Positions 52,861 to 62,882 of a stretch of 64,000 nt of DNA are shown piece after piece. The notes under the pieces were generated by a model. The model had not been told where the DNA came from. It ran no database searches and was given only the letters and a program-made list of their open reading frames with translations. The translations under genes were made by a program, and so were the position numbers. The stretch's first letter is position 1; the number at the start of each line of letters is the position of its first letter. This DNA is from Ignavibacteria bacterium. Lineage in GTDB: Bacteria > Bacteroidota > Ignavibacteria > Ignavibacteriales > SURF-24. Location of the stretch: contig JAAXKQ010000011.1 of the NCBI GenBank assembly GCA_025612245.1, positions 1-64,000 of the forward strand. Direction: 5' to 3'.

Positions 52861-55800
52861 ATGACATTAAAAGCAGACATATTAAGGATTCTAAACGGAC
52901 TGAAAGTCCCGGCTTTTGTCGTGGATAAAGACGGTAAGGTTTTGCATTCCAATTCTGAAGGTGAACTTCTCCAAGTGCAGGGACATAGACTGCGGAACAT
53001 AGGGGAGATTTTTACGCCTGAGTGTGCCGGGAGGGTAAAGAACAGGCTTGCAGAATGCATCGGCTACTTAAATTCTTCAACTTTGAAAAGCATGGACACT
53101 GCTGCGGCCATAAAAGAGCTAAACGGCAAAAGCGAGGCCGAAGTATCCTTTACGGCTTTTGAGTCTGAAGATAGTCTTTCTTATGCCGTATGCACGCTTA
53201 AGTTTGTACACATGGAAAAGAAACCTGAAAAGTTCGAGTTCAGTTTCTCCCCGGGGGAATTCAATGAAATAATTGAGGATGACGCCTTAATTAAAATATT
53301 TGAGGAAATCAAATCCTCTTTCCCGTTCACCTTCCTGGGCAAGAACAGGCTGCAGAATGAAATAAATAAACTGGACGAGTTTTTCTGGCTCAAAGACAGC
53401 GATGGAAAATACTTGCTGGTTAATTTGCTATTTTCACAGTTCCTCGGCCTCAAGCCTAACCAGATTGAGGGAAAGCATGAAACGGAATTCTTTCCGAAAC
53501 ACATGACTGAGATGCTCCTTGCGGTTGACAAGTACATAAAAGATACGGCAAACATGGTAATCAGAAACGGATTTCCGCTTTACCAGCTGAACGGAGAAAC
53601 TGCACGAGTAGTTGAAGTCCCCTTGTGCGATCTGGATAACAAGGTAATTGCCGTCATGGGTTTCTCGCAGAAAAGCTATTCTCAGGCTCCTGGAGGAAAG
53701 TTTAGCCCGGAACTACTGTTCGAAAGCGCCATAGGCCTGATGCCCGCTACGGTTATAATTGCAGATAAAGATGGAATAGTAAAGAGTAAAAGCGGAGAGC
53801 TTGCAGCGCTGAAGACTTCTGAGGTCTACCCGGGGGTAACCTTAAAGAGCATACTGCCCCCTGAAATTTGCTTTGAGGCCGATAGCTTTATGCACGACGA
53901 AGCCCTGGACACTCTGGAATTGAAAAAGAAGGTCACGTCTGGCGCAAAAGCAATTCCTTTTGTTTTTCACTTAAGAAAGATATATAATTGCAGGGGAAAA
54001 CTGGAAGGGTTCCTGCTTTTTGTTGAAGAGGAGCATAGTTTATCAGCTAACAGTAATACAATAGGGAATAACGAAAAGATGTACGAAATCTTAATGCAAA
54101 CGAGTCCTGAACCGATGTTTATTTATGACATCGAAAACCTGCGTTTTCTCGACGTAAATCAGGCTGCACTGCAGGTCTATGGCTATTCCATGCACGAATT
54201 CCTGCAGATGGATCTGACGGATTTGTATGCTCCGGAAGATATACAGACACTTTTGGACTCCTCCAATTCCCGCAATAAAGAAGGCGTCTTTACTGGCCCC
54301 TGGAGGCACAGAAAAAAAGACGGATCTTCACTGCTTGTGGAGATAAGCAAATCGGCATTCGACTTCCAGGGCAAAAAGGCCCACTTCAATATTGTAAAGG
54401 ACGTCACACAGAAAGCGGAACTTGAGAAGAATTCCCAGTTCTTTAACGCTGCTTTCAACACTGTAAGCGACCCGATATTTATTACTGATCCGGAAGGCTT
54501 CATAACAAAAGTTAACGACTCTGTTACAAGCCTGCTTGGATACAGCAGGACCGAAATGGATATGCGGCCTTTTCTTACGCTGGCTACCGACAGCTACAGG
54601 ACAGAGATAAATACTTCCATATTCTATTCCAAATCCAAGGTGCCCGTCAGCCTTGAGGTTGAACTGAAAAAGTCGGACGGATCTGCCGTTGAAGCTAAAC
54701 TGGTTGCCCTTCCGGTCCTTGGCTACGACGGGCAGGTAAGTTCCTTTAGTGTTGTTGCCAAAATAAAACAGAAAGCCCAAAGTGAAGTTGGAATTTATAA
54801 CGCTGAAGATTCAAGACAGGCAAGAGTCAAGCCTTTTGAGGATTCTTCTTCTCCAGTAAAAAAGAGCGCAAGCGGCAGCATTGATCCCGGATTCCTGTCC
54901 AGCATGTTCCACGAGATACTGACCCCGATGAATGTAATACTGGGATTTATACAGGAACTGACTGAGAATATGGAGTCTCCTACCCAGGAGCAGAAGGAAT
55001 CCATAGATATAATCAATCAGAACAGAGCCATACTTATGCAGACCATGGATTCTGTGCTTGAGTACTCGCATATTGAACAAAACAGGGTGGAGATTACACC
55101 GCAGAGGGTCTTTTTTACCGAGGTCGTGGACAACCTTCAGAAAGACCTCAGCCGCCTGATGGCAGAAAGCAAGATACTATTTAACTATGGGAAAATCTCT
55201 ACTTCCTTGAGCTTCGAGACGGACAGGCAAAGGCTTGAGTCTTTCCTTGCCATGTTTATCAAGATGGCCATGCGCATTACAAGGGAAGGCAATATTTTCC
55301 TTTCGGCCTATCAGTACGACGACCAGCATTGCCTTATCAGCCTGAAGGACAGAAGGGCTTCCATTTCACCTTATCTTCTTGAAAACATTGCCTTGCTTTT
55401 TACGGCCGATGAGGACAAAATTAAAAAGGATTTCGGAATTTCCAGGCTTACACTCCGGCTTGTACGCCGCCTGATGGCGCTTCTGCATGGAAAAATTGAA
55501 GTGGTAAAAAGATCCGGAGAGCCCGCCGAATTCGGCTTCCTTTTCCCGCTCGTCTTTCAAAATAATGGCCTTGAGCCTGAAGGCGCCTTAGACGTAGAGG
55601 AAGAAAAGGGGAGTCCTGAGCCTTTAAGATCCCAGCCTGATTATGAAGAATCACGCTCCAGGACCTCACAGGCTAAAGAAGATGAGATGGATATAATTGA
55701 AGACGGTGAAATTGCAGCAGACCTTAAACATGCTCTAAGAGAAGAAGAACCGGTAAAGATGTTCGAGCCGCAGATCCCAAAAAAAGAAACGACTGCACCC

Positions 55801-56241
55801 CCTGCCTCCGGCGCTGAGGCTACAGTAACAGCGAAGCCGGAAGAAAAGCCCATCCCTTCTTCGCCTGAGTTCGACCTCTCACGTCTTCAGTGCCTTTATG
55901 TCGAGGACCAGATCGATTCACAGATACTCTTCAAGGTGCAGATGAAGGACCTCAAGAAGGTGGACTCGGTGGCAAGCTTTGAATCTGCACTGCCTTTACT
56001 GGAAGAGAATAAGTACGACTTTATCATCATGGATATTAACCTTCAGGGAGAATATAACGGCCTGGATGCCCTGAGGATAATCCGCAGGATGCCCGGGTAC
56101 AGGAACATCCCTGTAATTGCCGTTACGGCTTATATACTTGCAGGAGACAAAGAAAAGTTTATTGCAGCCGGATTTAACGGATTTATTTCCAAACCTGTCA
56201 TGCGCGACAAGGTTATGGACGCTCTCAAAAAAATCATCTGA
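52861..56241 (+). CDS. Multi-PAS hybrid histidine kinase with degenerate ATPase domain and C-terminal receiver
   Basis: Several PAS domains; HisKA 'FLSSMFHEILTPMNVILGF'; receiver 'CLYVEDQIDSQ...FIIMDINLQG...IAVTAY...ISKPV'. Confidence 0.88.
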   Translation: MTLKADILRILNGLKVPAFVVDKDGKVLHSNSEGELLQVQGHRLRNIGEIFTPECAGRVKNRLAECIGYLNSSTLKSMDTAAAIKELNGKSEAEVSFTAFESEDSLSYAVCTLKFVHMEKKPEKFEFSFSPGEFNEIIEDDALIKIFEEIKSSFPFTFLGKNRLQNEINKLDEFFWLKDSDGKYLLVNLLFSQFLGLKPNQIEGKHETEFFPKHMTEMLLAVDKYIKDTANMVIRNGFPLYQLNGETARVVEVPLCDLDNKVIAVMGFSQKSYSQAPGGKFSPELLFESAIGLMPATVIIADKDGIVKSKSGELAALKTSEVYPGVTLKSILPPEICFEADSFMHDEALDTLELKKKVTSGAKAIPFVFHLRKIYNCRGKLEGFLLFVEEEHSLSANSNTIGNNEKMYEILMQTSPEPMFIYDIENLRFLDVNQAALQVYGYSMHEFLQMDLTDLYAPEDIQTLLDSSNSRNKEGVFTGPWRHRKKDGSSLLVEISKSAFDFQGKKAHFNIVKDVTQKAELEKNSQFFNAAFNTVSDPIFITDPEGFITKVNDSVTSLLGYSRTEMDMRPFLTLATDSYRTEINTSIFYSKSKVPVSLEVELKKSDGSAVEAKLVALPVLGYDGQVSSFSVVAKIKQKAQSEVGIYNAEDSRQARVKPFEDSSSPVKKSASGSIDPGFLSSMFHEILTPMNVILGFIQELTENMESPTQEQKESIDIINQNRAILMQTMDSVLEYSHIEQNRVEITPQRVFFTEVVDNLQKDLSRLMAESKILFNYGKISTSLSFETDRQRLESFLAMFIKMAMRITREGNIFLSAYQYDDQHCLISLKDRRASISPYLLENIALLFTADEDKIKKDFGISRLTLRLVRRLMALLHGKIEVVKRSGEPAEFGFLFPLVFQNNGLEPEGALDVEEEKGSPEPLRSQPDYEESRSRTSQAKEDEMDIIEDGEIAADLKHALREEEPVKMFEPQIPKKETTAPPASGAEATVTAKPEEKPIPSSPEFDLSRLQCLYVEDQIDSQILFKVQMKDLKKVDSVASFESALPLLEENKYDFIIMDINLQGEYNGLDALRIIRRMPGYRNIPVIAVTAYILAGDKEKFIAAGFNGFISKPVMRDKVMDALKKII

Positions 56242-56440: not shown

Positions 56441-56460
56441 ATTTGTCAATATTGACAAAT
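56441..56460. promoter_or_regulatory. Perfect 20-bp palindrome ATTTGTCAATATTGACAAAT upstream of lexA
   Basis: The two 10-bp halves are exact reverse complements. Confidence 0.65.
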
Positions 56461-56474
56461 TATATTTTCTTGTT

Positions 56475-56506
56475 TAAAATTACCATACAGATGTATGGTA
56501 ATTTTA
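56475..56506. promoter_or_regulatory. Perfect 32-bp inverted repeat (15-bp arms) upstream of lexA; candidate LexA operator
   Basis: TAAAATTACCATACA-GA-TGTATGGTAATTTTA. Confidence 0.7.
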
Positions 56507-56551: not shown

Positions 56552-57175
56552 ATGCCGCGCAGTCTGACAGAAATCCAGAAGAAAATACTCGACTTTCTCA
56601 TCGAGGAAAGAGCAGTCGGGGGGAGAGTGCCTACGCTTTCTGAAATTGCAGAGAGGTTTGGCTATAAGAACCGGGCTACCGTACAGCAGCATCTGCAGGC
56701 CCTTGAGAAGAAGGGCTACATAAAAAGACACCCACGGCTTTCGCGCTCAATTGAAATCACACTTGAGGATAAGTACTTTGTACCCAGGCCCGTCCTGGGA
56801 GAAGTTGCAGCCGGAAATCCACTGGTAATATATCCCGATGCAATAGACACGGTGGAACTGCCTTCAATTGCAAGAATGCCGAAGGACTCGTTCCTTCTCC
56901 GTGTAAAAGGGGACAGCCTTAAGGATGCATATATCTTCAGCGGCGACTTTGTTATAGTAAATCCCAATATGAATCCCGTAAACGGCCAGATTGTAGTTGC
57001 CATACTGGACGGTGCCGCCGTGGTAAAAAGGTTTTATAAAAAGAGCGACCACATTGAGCTACATTCGGAAAATCCCGAGTATGCACCCATAATCGTGGAA
57101 AGAAAAGGCCATGTCTTCAAGATATCCGGCGTTGTGGTGGGGATATACAGAAGCATGGATAAGAAAACAGTATAA
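56552..57175 (+). CDS. lexA: LexA repressor
   Basis: LTEIQKKILDFLIEERAVGGRVPTLSEIAERFGYKNRATVQQHLQAL; catalytic Ser context 'LLRVKGDSLKDAYIFSGDFVIV' and Lys in 'GAAVVKRFYK'. Confidence 0.94.
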   Translation: MPRSLTEIQKKILDFLIEERAVGGRVPTLSEIAERFGYKNRATVQQHLQALEKKGYIKRHPRLSRSIEITLEDKYFVPRPVLGEVAAGNPLVIYPDAIDTVELPSIARMPKDSFLLRVKGDSLKDAYIFSGDFVIVNPNMNPVNGQIVVAILDGAAVVKRFYKKSDHIELHSENPEYAPIIVERKGHVFKISGVVVGIYRSMDKKTV

Positions 57176-57191
57176 GGAGGACCTTTCTTAA

Positions 57192-58079
57192 ATGACTAAT
57201 ATCTATATCGGAACCGCCGGATGGTCCTACAAGGACTGGGTCCCAAACTTTTACCCAAAAGGACAGTCGGGAAGTTTTGACTGGCTGGAGTTTTACAGCC
57301 GCTACTTTAACCTCGTGGAGGTTAATGCAACTTATTACGCTTACCTGAGCCCCAAGGCAGCTGCGGGCTGGGTGGAAAAGGTCGCAAAAGCCGATCACTT
57401 TCTCTTTACGGTAAAGCTTCACCAGGATTTTACGCACGCAAGGAAATTTGAAAATGCGAACATAAAAGCCGTCCAGGCGAATCTGGACATCCTCTCGGAT
57501 GCCGGGCGCCTTGGTGGGCTGCTCATCCAGTTCCCTTATTCATTTGCCTTTGACTCTGCAGCCCTTGAGCACATAAGAATATTAAACGACCTGTTCGCGA
57601 GCTATAAGCGCTTTGTGGAGGTAAGGCACTCCTCGTGGATTAACCAGGAGGCTTACGGCTTTTTCCACGAAATGGACATTTCGCTTTGCACCATAGACCA
57701 GCCCCAGATAGGGCGTTCGGTCGCTTTTGAACCCATCGTTACAAACGCCAGTGCTTATTTCCGCTTTCACGGACGTAACGTCGAGGCCTGGAAGCAGTCG
57801 GTGCATAACTTCGGCAGGGATCAGAGCTACGAGCAGGCAAGTGAGAGGTATAAGTACCTTTATTCACCGGGCGAACTGGTGGAAATTGAAAATAAGATAA
57901 AAGAAATTTATGACAGGGTGAAGGATATCTACGTCGTAATGAATAATCATCCCAGCACCTACGGAATTGTCAATGCTTTTGAAATGATGCATATTCTGAG
58001 AGGAAGGTCGAGGGTTACCGTACCGGAGAATGCCATAAAGGCGTTCCCAAGATTATCTCCAATAGCTCAGGCAGGTTAA
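57192..58079 (+). CDS. DUF72-family protein
   Basis: IYIGTAGWSYKDWVPNFYPKG, VEVNATYYAYLS, FTVKLHQDFTH, VEVRHSSWIN, YVVMNNHPS. Confidence 0.93.
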   Translation: MTNIYIGTAGWSYKDWVPNFYPKGQSGSFDWLEFYSRYFNLVEVNATYYAYLSPKAAAGWVEKVAKADHFLFTVKLHQDFTHARKFENANIKAVQANLDILSDAGRLGGLLIQFPYSFAFDSAALEHIRILNDLFASYKRFVEVRHSSWINQEAYGFFHEMDISLCTIDQPQIGRSVAFEPIVTNASAYFRFHGRNVEAWKQSVHNFGRDQSYEQASERYKYLYSPGELVEIENKIKEIYDRVKDIYVVMNNHPSTYGIVNAFEMMHILRGRSRVTVPENAIKAFPRLSPIAQAG

Positions 58080-58089
58080 GAAACAATAT

Positions 58090-59235
58090 ATGCGCACAAT
58101 ATTTCACCTGGACCTGGATGCATTTTTTATATCGGTTGAACGCATACTCGACCCGACTCTTGAAGGAAAGCCCGTCATAGTAGGCGGGGACCCTCACGGC
58201 AGGGGAGTTGTAGCCGCCTGCTCTTATGAGGCCAGAAAGTACGGCCTTCGTTCGGGCATGCCTATACGCGATGCATACAGGCTCTGTACACACGGAGTCT
58301 ATCTTCACGGGCACCACCAGGAGTATTCAAATTATTCGCAGGCCGTAAAAAGGCTGCTGGAAGGCTATGCCCCTCTTATAGAGCAGGCGTCCATAGATGA
58401 ATTCTATATGGACTTTACCGGGTGCAGCAAAACATACGGGCCTCCTCTGCCTTTTGCCAGGCGCCTTCAGGAAGAAGTGCTGCAAAAACTTTCCCTGCCG
58501 TGTTCAATTGGAATAGCAAGCAACAAGACGCTTGCCAAGGTGGCCTCAGACTTCATGAAGCCCCGGGGAATTACTTTTGTATTACCCGGAATGGAAAAGG
58601 AATTCTTAAGGCGCATGCCCGTTGAGGCCCTGCCAGGCGTAGGAAAGGTTACGCTCAGGGAGCTTAACAGCAAAGGGTTCTATAAGGTGGGCGATATAGC
58701 AAACCTCTCGGAGGAGTACCTCAACGTGGCTTTCGGAAAGCATGGGCTTGACCTTTGGAACAAGGCCAACGGAAGGGGCAACGACTGCCTCAGCGTTTCT
58801 TTTGAAAGAAAAAGCATATCAAAGGAACATACATTTGGTGAGGATACCTCGGATAATAAAAAGGTGGAAAAAGTGCTTTTCGGCCTGACCGGGCACGTCT
58901 GCCAGTCGCTCAGGGACAGGAACTGGCAGACCTCAACCATCAGCATTAAGCTCCGTTACTCTGATTTTAACACCGTTGTAAGATCCAAGACAACCCTTCC
59001 AACCGATGACGACCAGGTGATCTACCAGACGGCAGCCGACCTGTTCCGCAAGGCCTGCCAGAGGAGGGTTGCCGTAAGGCTTATCGGTATTCATTTAAGC
59101 AACTTCTGCGAAGCTGCGGAACAGGAAGGCCTTTTTGATGCCGGCGGGCCCTCCAGAAGAAAAAGAATGCTGAGCGCGGTTGATGCGCTGAGGAATAAGT
59201 ACGGCTATGCGGCTCTTTTGCTGGGGAAAAACTGA
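58090..59235 (+). CDS. dinB: Y-family DNA polymerase (Pol IV)
   Basis: IFHLDLDAFFISVERILDP, VVAACSYEARKYGLRSGMP, ASIDEFYMDFTG, GIASNKTLAKVASDFMKP. Confidence 0.96.
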   Translation: MRTIFHLDLDAFFISVERILDPTLEGKPVIVGGDPHGRGVVAACSYEARKYGLRSGMPIRDAYRLCTHGVYLHGHHQEYSNYSQAVKRLLEGYAPLIEQASIDEFYMDFTGCSKTYGPPLPFARRLQEEVLQKLSLPCSIGIASNKTLAKVASDFMKPRGITFVLPGMEKEFLRRMPVEALPGVGKVTLRELNSKGFYKVGDIANLSEEYLNVAFGKHGLDLWNKANGRGNDCLSVSFERKSISKEHTFGEDTSDNKKVEKVLFGLTGHVCQSLRDRNWQTSTISIKLRYSDFNTVVRSKTTLPTDDDQVIYQTAADLFRKACQRRVAVRLIGIHLSNFCEAAEQEGLFDAGGPSRRKRMLSAVDALRNKYGYAALLLGKN

Positions 59236-59297
59236 TGGAAAAGACGGGGGAGAAAGCATGAAATTTACCTTAAAGCAGGCTGGGAGTACCTTTACGT

Positions 59298-60980
59298 GTG
59301 CTGTCGCTTCATAACCACTCTTACTATTCCATGCTCCAGGGTACAATGTCCCCGGATCAGATTATTGCCCATGCAAAGGCTTCAGGGAGCTCTTATGTTG
59401 CCTTAAGCGACAGAAATAATATGTACGGACTTATACAGTTTGCAAAGAAAGCTTTTGCAGAAAACCTTAAGCCTGTACTGGGGGCTTTAATTGATGACCC
59501 AAAAGACAGAACCTTAAACGCGCTTTTTATCGCCCGGAACAACCGGGGTTATTCTCAGCTCTGCAAGCTGATTACTGCAAGAAACCTGAAGGAGGATTTC
59601 GCGCTTCAGGAGGTCTTCAGCAGCGACATCAAGGATTTTTTCGTCATTTCATCTTCTCTGGGGCTCCTTAACAAGATCAAAGGATGCAAGTGCTGGAAGG
59701 AGAACATTTTTGCCGAACTGATAGTAACAGAAAGACGCAGGAGAAAAACAAGGGAACTCTATGAGTTCGCCAGGGCTAACGGCCTGCAGATTGTGGCCTC
59801 GCACCCGGCTTACTTCCTGAAGCCGGAGGATTATGAACTGCACCGGGTAGTTACTGCCATCAGGCTGAATTCCACTCTTTACAACCTCTGCAGTGAAGAT
59901 TTAGCCGATGAGGAGTACTGCCTCAAGTCTTCGGAGGAAATGGATAAGCTGTGGAAATCCCTGCCCGAGGCACTCTGGAACATCGGGCGTATTGTAAGGG
60001 AGTCTAACGTGGAGCTCGACCTGGGGAGCCGGAAATTTCCCGTATTTTCACTTCCCGAAGGGGAGACCTCATTTTCTTACCTCTGGAAGGTGGCCTTCCG
60101 CGGCCTCGAGGAAAAGTACAAGCCCATCACCGAAAAGGCCATTAAAAGGCTTCAGCACGAGCTGGAGGTAATTGAAGAACTGAATTATGCCGACTATTTC
60201 CTCATCATATGGGACGTAATAAGGGAGGCGCGTAAAAGAGGGATGGTTTCCATTGGACGCGGCTCTGCTGCAAACAGCCTCGTATCCTACTGCCTGGATT
60301 TTACGCAAGTCGATCCCCTGTACCACAATTTTTATTTTGAACGCTTCTTAAACCGCGGGCGCAAAAGCCCACCTGACGTGGACCTGGACTTCTCCTGGCA
60401 GGAGAGGGACCAGATAGTAAAATATATCTATGAAAAGTACGGCTTTAGCCGTGTTGCAATGATTTCCACTACCGTAACCTTCCGGGCCCGTTCGGCCTTC
60501 AGGGAAGTAGCCAAAGCCTTCGGCATTGCGAACGAGGAGATCTCGCGCTACAGCAAGTTCATCCCTTGGACAAGCGCGCAGAATCTGCCCGGCATTGCAG
60601 ACAAGTTCCCGGAGACAAAGTCACTGGATTTTAGCACCGAACCTTGGCGCTCAATAGTCCGTATTGCCTCCCGCCTGGCAGATTTCCCCAGGCACCTGAG
60701 CGTCCACCCGAGCGGAATTGTAATTACGGACCAGCCCATTACAAACTATGTAGCGCTTGAATATGCAAAGAATAAAGGGCTGGGACTTATAATTACACAG
60801 CCCGACATGTACTCCATTGAAGAGATGGGACTCATAAAAATTGACCTTCTAAGCCAGCGTTCGCTTGGTGTGCTGAAAGACACACTCCTCAGGATAAACA
60901 GGGGTCCTTCTGCTCCTGAGGGCAGCCTTACGGATGATCATTCCAAAGTCCGTGTCTTCCGGATAAATTCGCAAAACTAG
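59298..60980 (+). CDS. dnaE2: C-terminally truncated DnaE2-like DNA polymerase III alpha subunit
   Basis: PHP-type N-terminus (LHNHSYYSMLQG, LSDRNNMYGLIQFA), GRGSAANSLVSYCL, PDVDLDF, IKIDLLSQRSLGVLKDTL; stops ~30 residues later. Confidence 0.85.
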   Translation: MLSLHNHSYYSMLQGTMSPDQIIAHAKASGSSYVALSDRNNMYGLIQFAKKAFAENLKPVLGALIDDPKDRTLNALFIARNNRGYSQLCKLITARNLKEDFALQEVFSSDIKDFFVISSSLGLLNKIKGCKCWKENIFAELIVTERRRRKTRELYEFARANGLQIVASHPAYFLKPEDYELHRVVTAIRLNSTLYNLCSEDLADEEYCLKSSEEMDKLWKSLPEALWNIGRIVRESNVELDLGSRKFPVFSLPEGETSFSYLWKVAFRGLEEKYKPITEKAIKRLQHELEVIEELNYADYFLIIWDVIREARKRGMVSIGRGSAANSLVSYCLDFTQVDPLYHNFYFERFLNRGRKSPPDVDLDFSWQERDQIVKYIYEKYGFSRVAMISTTVTFRARSAFREVAKAFGIANEEISRYSKFIPWTSAQNLPGIADKFPETKSLDFSTEPWRSIVRIASRLADFPRHLSVHPSGIVITDQPITNYVALEYAKNKGLGLIITQPDMYSIEEMGLIKIDLLSQRSLGVLKDTLLRINRGPSAPEGSLTDDHSKVRVFRINSQN

Positions 60981-61395: not shown

Positions 61396-62040
61396 ATGAA
61401 AATTCTTGAAAGTCACGACAGGTTAAACAGGTACAATTCCATTGCCCAGGTTCTAAGTGTGAACAGGGCAGTAGTTGCTTACAGCAGGGAACTTTCCTTT
61501 TCCACCTCAAAATTCTGCAAAGTAGTTGAAGTCATAAGAAAAAAACAAAAAGAATTTAATTTAGAGCATCGCTCCGGGCAGTTAAAAACGTTAAAAATAA
61601 AAGACGAACTGATAATAATATTGTCAGCCGTTTCGGGTGCTCTTTATGAATTTGGCAAAGAGACTGGAGATCCCGGACTTAAAAACCTCTCAAAATGCGG
61701 CCCGAAGGGGCTCTTTGCCATGGATGAGAATCTTCTGATAAGTAAGGCAGATGAAACCTACAGACTTTCAGAAAAATACTGCCGGGACTTGAAGGAGTAC
61801 AATATCGGGAAAAGCAGCCTGCAGTTCCTGAAAAGTAAAACCGCCGAATTCAAGGAAGCCCTCCGTGAAAACAGTTCGAAGTATTATTTTTTGAACCATT
61901 CCATCGTCATGCTCGACCGGCTTTTTATGCAGGCAGATGAAATTCTGAAAAATATAGACGGTTTTGTTGAAGTTTTAAGCAGCAACCATTTACAGTTCAG
62001 CAGGGACTACTTGAATATCCGCCATAGTAAAAATAATTAA
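61396..62040 (+). CDS. Helical protein of unknown function
   Basis: 214-aa ORF, charged alpha-helical composition, no recognised family. Confidence 0.55.
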   Translation: MKILESHDRLNRYNSIAQVLSVNRAVVAYSRELSFSTSKFCKVVEVIRKKQKEFNLEHRSGQLKTLKIKDELIIILSAVSGALYEFGKETGDPGLKNLSKCGPKGLFAMDENLLISKADETYRLSEKYCRDLKEYNIGKSSLQFLKSKTAEFKEALRENSSKYYFLNHSIVMLDRLFMQADEILKNIDGFVEVLSSNHLQFSRDYLNIRHSKNN

Positions 62041-62081: not shown

Positions 62082-62882
62082 TTAATCCTGAAATTCGCTG
62101 AATCCAAAACCCAGATAATTCATCTTTCCAAAACCGCACTGGTATCCTACCCTTATCAGCTCAGGATTTCCTTTTATTCTAAAAGGCACCACGTTTCCTA
62201 AAACAGCATAGTTTTTCTGGTTATATTCCAGCATAAATTTCGGTTTTAATTTTTTGCTCGTTTTTTCATTTGCGTATATGTAGTTCCTGTCCCACTGGAA
62301 AAAAATAAAATCATTACTTACCTGTGAATTGTAAATTGATTCATATTTTCTGCAGAGGTCCTCTTTTATCAGCTTACTTACCGTGCGTATGTCATCCCTG
62401 TAGGAAAAGTAGATGTTTCTCAGCACGTTTTTAATCATCTTCTTGCCGGGAAGGATAATGGGGGATTTGGGGACAAAAATAATATCGTCCCTGAAGAGAG
62501 GGTCCTGTATGGTTTCCACCTTGGTGATTAAAAAAGTCGTCTGCGACTGCCCCTTCTGAATAATCAGTTCCTTGTCGGACAGCCTGTCAATCACGTTACT
62601 TTTTATATAATCATTGATCAATGGGAAAGAAATGCTCAGGTGCGCATTGTTGCTTCTTAAAAAGAGCGTCTCTTTTTTGTGAAAGACATTTTCGAAGTGC
62701 AGATTGAAGGTAAAAAGCCCGAAAGGTTTATCGGTTGCCCTGAAGCCCTTACTTTTCAGATAATCCTTGAATTCAGGGGTTTCAAAACCCAGGAGGTTAG
62801 AAATTTCCTTTGAAACAATCGCATTGTAGTTGTACGGGAATTCTTTCTCCTTAATTGCCTTCAATTTAAGTACTAAACGCAT
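62082..62882 (-). CDS. CRISPR-associated Cas6-like endoribonuclease (tentative) or unknown protein
   Basis: 'MRLVLKLKAIKEKEFPYNYNAIVSKEISNLLG' start, 'FTFNLHF' segment and a Gly-rich C-terminus 'GYQCGFGKMNYLGFGF' resemble Cas6 RAMP architecture. Confidence 0.5.
   Translation of the reverse strand: MRLVLKLKAIKEKEFPYNYNAIVSKEISNLLGFETPEFKDYLKSKGFRATDKPFGLFTFNLHFENVFHKKETLFLRSNNAHLSISFPLINDYIKSNVIDRLSDKELIIQKGQSQTTFLITKVETIQDPLFRDDIIFVPKSPIILPGKKMIKNVLRNIYFSYRDDIRTVSKLIKEDLCRKYESIYNSQVSNDFIFFQWDRNYIYANEKTSKKLKPKFMLEYNQKNYAVLGNVVPFRIKGNPELIRVGYQCGFGKMNYLGFGFSEFQD

Follow-up and report, generated by a model that had tools for sequence, protein, structure and literature searches.

Several described systems resemble the operon treated here, lexA-DUF72-dinB-dnaE2' of an Ignavibacteria bacterium, in which DnaE2 is divided over two genes. 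It lies in a 64,000-nt stretch of DNA (hereafter the window; contig JAAXKQ010000011.1, assembly GCA_025612245.1) from a genome of 4.84 Mb in 44 contigs (G000). The putative DnaE2B-PolY-RecA mutasome of Bacteroidetes, known for instance from the polY-dnaE2 genes of Cellulophaga algicola (PMC6511836; PMC12926913), shares with it a Y-family polymerase, predicted to be active here, beside DnaE2, the lack of ImuA and ImuB and, often, the presence of lexA; the RecA-NT motif of its polymerase has a possible counterpart in the DinB tail of our operon. There, however, DnaE2 is a single chain, whereas here two genes encode it, split between palm and fingers, and both DUF72 and lexA belong to the operon. 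The Geobacter lexA-imuB-C-polY operon (PMC6511836), which is damage-induced, likewise places a single gene between lexA and the gene of an active Y-family polymerase, but this middle gene is ImuB-C instead of DUF72 and it has no dnaE2 half. Concerning the imuA-imuB-dnaE2 cassette (with lexA), a LexA-controlled Y-family member and DnaE2 are common to both, while in our operon imuA is absent, the catalytic residues of DinB are intact and DnaE2 is halved. In cyanobacteria, the replicative DnaE is encoded by two genes, the products of which are rejoined by a split intein. A C-family polymerase arising from two separate genes is what this case has in common with ours, but it concerns a replicative DnaE with an intein, whereas ours is a DnaE2 of which neither half bears one. 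An intein-free split C-family polymerase was not found in the literature searched, where only intein cases appeared, like the cyanobacterial split-intein DnaE mentioned in PMC3919608 (subscription papers, preprints and supplements were outside the scope of the search). A 2026 survey of bacterial polymerases presents 11 multimeric types, and neither a split DnaE2 nor DUF72 nor Ignavibacteria are mentioned in its main text. Encoding this enzyme in two intein-free genes, as Ignavibacteria do, appears not to have been described before.

The operon comprises four plus-strand genes with gaps of 16, 10 and 62 bp, and the other half of DnaE2 is encoded on another contig:

56552..57175, plus strand: lexA, 207 aa, repressor combining a winged-helix DNA-binding domain and an S24 peptidase (TIGR00498, PF01726, PF00717)
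57192..58079, plus strand: DUF72 (YecE/TM1631-like) TIM-barrel protein, 295 aa (PF01904, 1e-50; AlphaFold2 model; linkage)
58090..59235, plus strand: dinB, Y-family polymerase, 381 aa (IMS and IMS_C domains; PRK02406 Pol IV above cut-off)
59298..60980, plus strand: dnaE2 N-half (PHP, palm and thumb), 560 aa (PHP and PF07733 only)
G000:C31:268929-270632 (= L168:6927-8633), minus strand, outside the window: dnaE2 C-half of the same genome (fingers, HHH_6, OB)

Pfam and NCBIfam were concordant for all four operon genes. A preliminary description of the window had given these genes at the same coordinates and strand with intergenic gaps of 10-62 bp and had reported no ImuA- or RecA-like gene among them, all of which was borne out, the latter by domain search of the operon proteins. 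It had also called the composition unusual; the operon is indeed unusual, the reason being a DnaE2 split over two genes and not the absence of ImuA, which is a known condition (PMC6511836; PMC12926913).

The predicted product of the last operon gene is the N-terminal half of a split DnaE2 and not a product of decay. It contains the PHP, palm and thumb regions only and stops exactly before the fingers domain, aligning with residues 9-631 of Taq DnaE and with E. coli alpha up to residue 575; alone, it is devoid of fingers, HhH and OB. Its AlphaFold2 model (predicted local distance difference test, pLDDT, of 88) is a PHP-palm-thumb structure closest to those of DnaE, and its residues 539-560 form a disordered tail. 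In relatives, a conserved gene of about 567 aa near dinB encodes DNA_pol3_finger, HHH_6 and an OB fold, i.e., the other half, and the C-half of our genome aligns with Taq 645-1115 and E. coli 597-1054. Together the two halves tile a DnaE2, and the break falls in the linker that connects the final palm helix to the fingers. The tails at this point show little conservation and are short, the N-half continuing for about 25 aa beyond that helix and the C-half having about 55 aa ahead of the fingers. Fingers, HhH and OB without a C-terminal tau-binding domain, a DnaE2 trait, are held solely by the separate C-half gene. The catalytic aspartates 360, 362 and 516 show no variation among 38 N-halves, with the GRGSAANS loop invariant or nearly so, and the finger motifs are invariant in 23 C-halves; three of the nine PHP metal ligands are kept, a degenerate site as expected for DnaE2 (PMC12926913). 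DnaE1 has a full-length gene of its own (1158 aa; G000:C44). The label dnaE2' of the preliminary description was right as to DnaE2 but missed that the protein ends before the fingers and that the missing half lies elsewhere in the genome, and the decay implied by its prime mark is contradicted by a conserved half with invariant catalytic aspartates. Regarding the surroundings of the C-half gene, in our genome it follows a dnaX-like gene of the same orientation at a distance of 272 bp (L168:6927-10558), and it adjoins a YajQ-like gene in G000, G001 and G123 (gene names by eye). An internal deletion in the C-half of G001 was only apparent, a run of 100 Ns standing in its place.

Scanning for the N-half led to 80 loci from species-level genomes, mostly of Ignavibacteria, Melioribacter, Ignavibacterium and unclassified metagenome-assembled genomes of the Bacteroidetes/Chlorobi group. 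Nearly all of them encode the same short product, mostly 530-590 aa long with a common end point, at 47-85% identity. Among 116 genomes of the order, the N-half is present in 78 and the C-half in 77 (both in 73, only N in five, only C in four, neither in 34), a co-occurrence with a Fisher value of 1e-19, which ignores shared ancestry. No fused N+C version was seen in these 116 genomes, the C-half frames being all short (242-628 aa), and DnaE2 is encoded in the order genomes examined by two separate genes instead of as a single polypeptide. A class-wide draw of 149 genomes contained the short N-half in 17 (families f1, f2, f3 and f13), 17/17 with a standalone C-half, and additionally G110 with the C-half only; other families had a full-length DnaE2 of about 1040-1110 aa or DnaE1 only. 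A phylum-wide draw, made with a strict threshold, gave no short form beyond the order and a few other matches of about 1020-1040 aa. Both halves are separate genes in the single-contig genomes G117, G123, G335, G385 and G392, a few kb apart in G117 and 657 kb apart in G123; single-contig genomes such as these two exclude an assembly artefact as the cause of the split. Synteny varies: lexA-DUF72-dinB-N-C with adjacent halves is found in L105 and L108, lexA-DUF72-dinB-N in the window, L038, L058, L095 and L097, and C-N-DUF72-dinB in L122 and L123. The halves alone are ordered C-N in, e.g., L098 and N-C in L073, six loci have DUF72, then the C gene on the opposite strand, then dinB-N, and in some genomes the halves are divergent or unlinked.

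A tree was built from 33 concatenated N+C pairs, 12 full-length DnaE2 and DnaE1 outgroups. All 33 split pairs formed one clade (support 0.998) nested in DnaE2 (0.997), and split and full-length DnaE2 together (45/45) fell in one clade apart from DnaE1 (support 0.997), a topology consistent with a single fission event behind the split DnaE2. Mean identity among the 33 pairs is 0.62 for the N-half and 0.61 for the C-half, and the tree distances of the two correlate at 0.87, although shared ancestry alone could yield the same. Purifying selection acts on both halves: when the genus's two species are compared, the ratio of nonsynonymous to synonymous substitution (dN/dS) amounts to 0.085 in the N-half and 0.069 in the C-half, similar to the 0.08-0.10 of lexA, DUF72 and dinB.

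Upstream of the operon, two further features were located:

56480..56501, no strand: candidate LexA operator, a 22-bp perfect palindrome TTACCATACA-GA-TGTATGGTAA (box recurs 5' of lexA in relatives)
56452..56480, plus strand: sigma-70-like promoter, TTGACA (56452-56457), 17 bp, TAAAAT (56475-56480) (by eye)

The full palindrome reads TTACCATACAGATGTATGGTAA, and its chance expectation in the window is 0, as dinucleotide shuffles of the window gave none. The -10-like TAAAAT abuts it, which is the position expected for a repressor (by eye). A box of consensus TTACCATACAAATGTATGGTAA precedes lexA in relatives from at least three families, with TTGACA recurring just 5' of it, and L108 bears a second copy 5' of dnaE(N). 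LexA itself scores 174.6 bits against TIGR00498 (cut-off 111); a LexA repressor with an S24 peptidase and its own predicted operator are both present. These data support the assignment of lexA-DUF72-dinB-dnaE N-half to the LexA-type damage-response operons, SOS induction being presumed from LexA homology. Pattern search of our genome with up to 3 mismatches and a reversed-pattern control yielded the lexA box as the sole clear match, weaker ones staying at control level; the operon that encodes it is therefore apparently the main target of this LexA. A genome-wide LexA regulon was not recovered with these patterns, since only the lexA box stood above the control and no further targets could be named. 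A second protein with an S24 peptidase (G000:C18:34343-34717) is more distant, its 44% identity being confined to the peptidase part, and other genomes have a second LexA-like protein of about 40% identity.

In DinB, D8, D103 and E104 are invariant among 42 sequences, leaving the catalytic residues intact. The window protein has the beta-clamp-like motif QEGLF, nearly all 42 carrying QExLF, and the C-tails of the 42 follow the pattern R+kmLrAvxkIRdKyGysxIxxG, which lines up in register with the N-termini of RecA (K+KILddtIxxIEKxyGKGSIMKLG) from those genomes. The tail was not matched by Pfam DUF4113. A RecA-family search of our genome gave one match, RecA itself. With imuA absent from the operon and a Y-family member catalytically intact by sequence, the operon departs from the imuA-imuB-dnaE2 type; like the DnaE2B-PolY-RecA type, it has a PolY with intact catalytic residues linked to DnaE2. 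The motif has been named RecA-NT, and ImuA-less PolY-DnaE2 systems are known in Bacteroidetes (PMC6511836; PMC12926913). As DinB bears a tail resembling this motif, RecA itself may fill the place of ImuA.

Taken together, the operon is probably a LexA-autoregulated translesion-synthesis module in which the split DnaE2 halves assemble non-covalently into a working polymerase. LexA would bind the palindrome at 56480-56501 on the promoter, and its RecA-triggered self-cleavage, as suggested by homology, would free the promoter and induce the operon. DinB, DUF72 and the palm half of DnaE2 (PHP-palm-thumb, with the three catalytic aspartates) would then be supplied, the fingers half (fingers, HhH, OB) coming from the separate gene downstream of dnaX on the other contig. 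The halves would most likely join non-covalently at the palm/fingers boundary to give one working error-prone DnaE2, and through the clamp-like motif and the RecA-NT-like tail of DinB a DnaE2-PolY-RecA mutasome could form, perhaps with RecA. Some observations weigh against this scheme. A LexA box was sought at the C-half gene of our genome and not found, and this gene is unlinked to the operon, so that co-regulation of the halves is not obvious here. Nine genomes have one half only, and although G552 and G553 are fragmented or incomplete, the completeness given for G110 and G485 is 99%. Furthermore, the likeness between the DinB tail and the RecA N-terminus is short and of weak statistical support (hhalign P 0.037). 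As a tentative extension, the split could itself serve control: with the fingers half outside the LexA regulon and the palm half made only after damage, the polymerase would be assembled only under SOS. A divided C-family polymerase would in that case act as a protein-level two-key lock on mutagenesis.

Concerning DUF72, the preliminary description had tied it to translesion synthesis or the damage response. The linkage is real: of the 38 loci having dinB near the N-half, 24 have DUF72 no more than 3 kb from dinB, and the neighborhood search recovered lexA-DUF72-dinB in relatives, so the objection that DUF72 might not be conserved in this position fails. In the loci where this order is followed by the dnaE half (window, L038, L058, L095, L097, L105, L108), the gap from lexA to DUF72 is 0-190 bp, and G123 has lexA-DUF72-dinB without DnaE halves alongside. 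The AlphaFold2 model (pLDDT 92) best matches 1VPQ (TM1631) in the PDB and also 1ZTV (EF0366), with which it shares fold and family, and the His, Glu, Asp, Arg and Asn invariant across 24 sequences would fit an enzyme. TM1631 has been proposed as a DNA-repair nuclease (PMC3828134; PMC4939058), a proposal that is computational, and the role of the window protein is likewise putative. DUF72 as a UV-endonuclease was considered and found unsupported, the next-best Foldseek matches being sugar epimerase/isomerase-like and other barrels with no DNA-repair nuclease among them. DUF72 could also be a passenger outside the damage response, which would be compatible with a split polymerase; the family is widespread, and 14 of the 38 dinB loci have no DUF72 within 3 kb, though some contigs are short. 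We regard this as rather unlikely in view of the tight lexA-DUF72-dinB order in seven loci and G123, the Ogt-type alkyltransferase also nearby in some loci, and the enrichment of DUF72 beside the archaeal/bacterial translesion polymerase PolB2 in other lineages, reported in a survey (PMC11791011). After PolB2, this would be the second connection between this widespread family and translesion synthesis. The Ogt-type O6-methylguanine-DNA methyltransferase is located near lexA, DUF72 or DnaE halves in L044, L055, L056, L067, L071, L085, L205 and L229.

The N-half might instead act alone after SOS, e.g., as a regulator competing with DnaE1 for a partner, the C-half having a separate role. That the LexA operon of our genome holds the N-half only, with the C-half elsewhere and lacking a LexA box, and that five genomes have an N-half but no detected C-half would suit such a role. 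It is nevertheless clearly unlikely, as the halves co-occur in 73 genomes, are often adjacent, evolve at equal rates and both keep their catalytic residues, and a nuclease role of the N-half is unlikely because the PHP metal site is largely lost (3/9 residues). Joining of the halves after translation by a split intein, or by frameshift or read-through of adjacent genes, is very improbable, even though split-intein DnaE is a known precedent for a divided C-family polymerase. Domain search revealed no intein domain in either half, and their short, poorly conserved tails have no conserved Cys or His-Asn junction; as the halves occur in shuffled order (N-C, C-N, divergent, unlinked), neither frameshift nor read-through can be the general explanation. 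Finally, a reading of the short DnaE as a pseudogene, or as an ordinary DnaE2 truncated in assembly or sequencing, is hardly conceivable, for although truncation is a common form of decay of polymerase genes, as the earlier prime mark implied, length and end point are constant in about 80 species-level loci, dN/dS is 0.085, the catalytic residues are invariant and the missing half is present as a conserved gene of its own.

The catalytic subunits of C-family polymerases are regarded as single chains, except where an intein does the rejoining. If non-covalent assembly of the two DnaE2 halves is true, an intein-free break between palm and fingers, kept across several families, would mean that a C-family polymerase is able to function in the form of two subunits. 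Biochemists would gain a ready-made on/off switch and a route to study the closing of the fingers. Annotation would tend to label both halves as truncated DnaE genes, and such an enzyme is easily overlooked.

Apart from the operon genes, a possible leader open reading frame of 18 codons (window 59258-59314, ATG at 59258), read by eye, overlaps the GTG start of the DnaE N-half; a purine-rich stretch precedes it and the leader might couple translation to the N-half. Immediately upstream of lexA (52861-56241) lies a PAS/histidine-kinase/receiver hybrid of 1126 aa, a homologue of which is also established 5' of lexA in G001, G002, G117 and G123, revealing a conserved linkage. Downstream, a Cas6-type CRISPR endoribonuclease (62082-62882, minus strand) adjoins a 214-aa protein of unknown family (61396-62040), and both are also kept beside the operon in G001.
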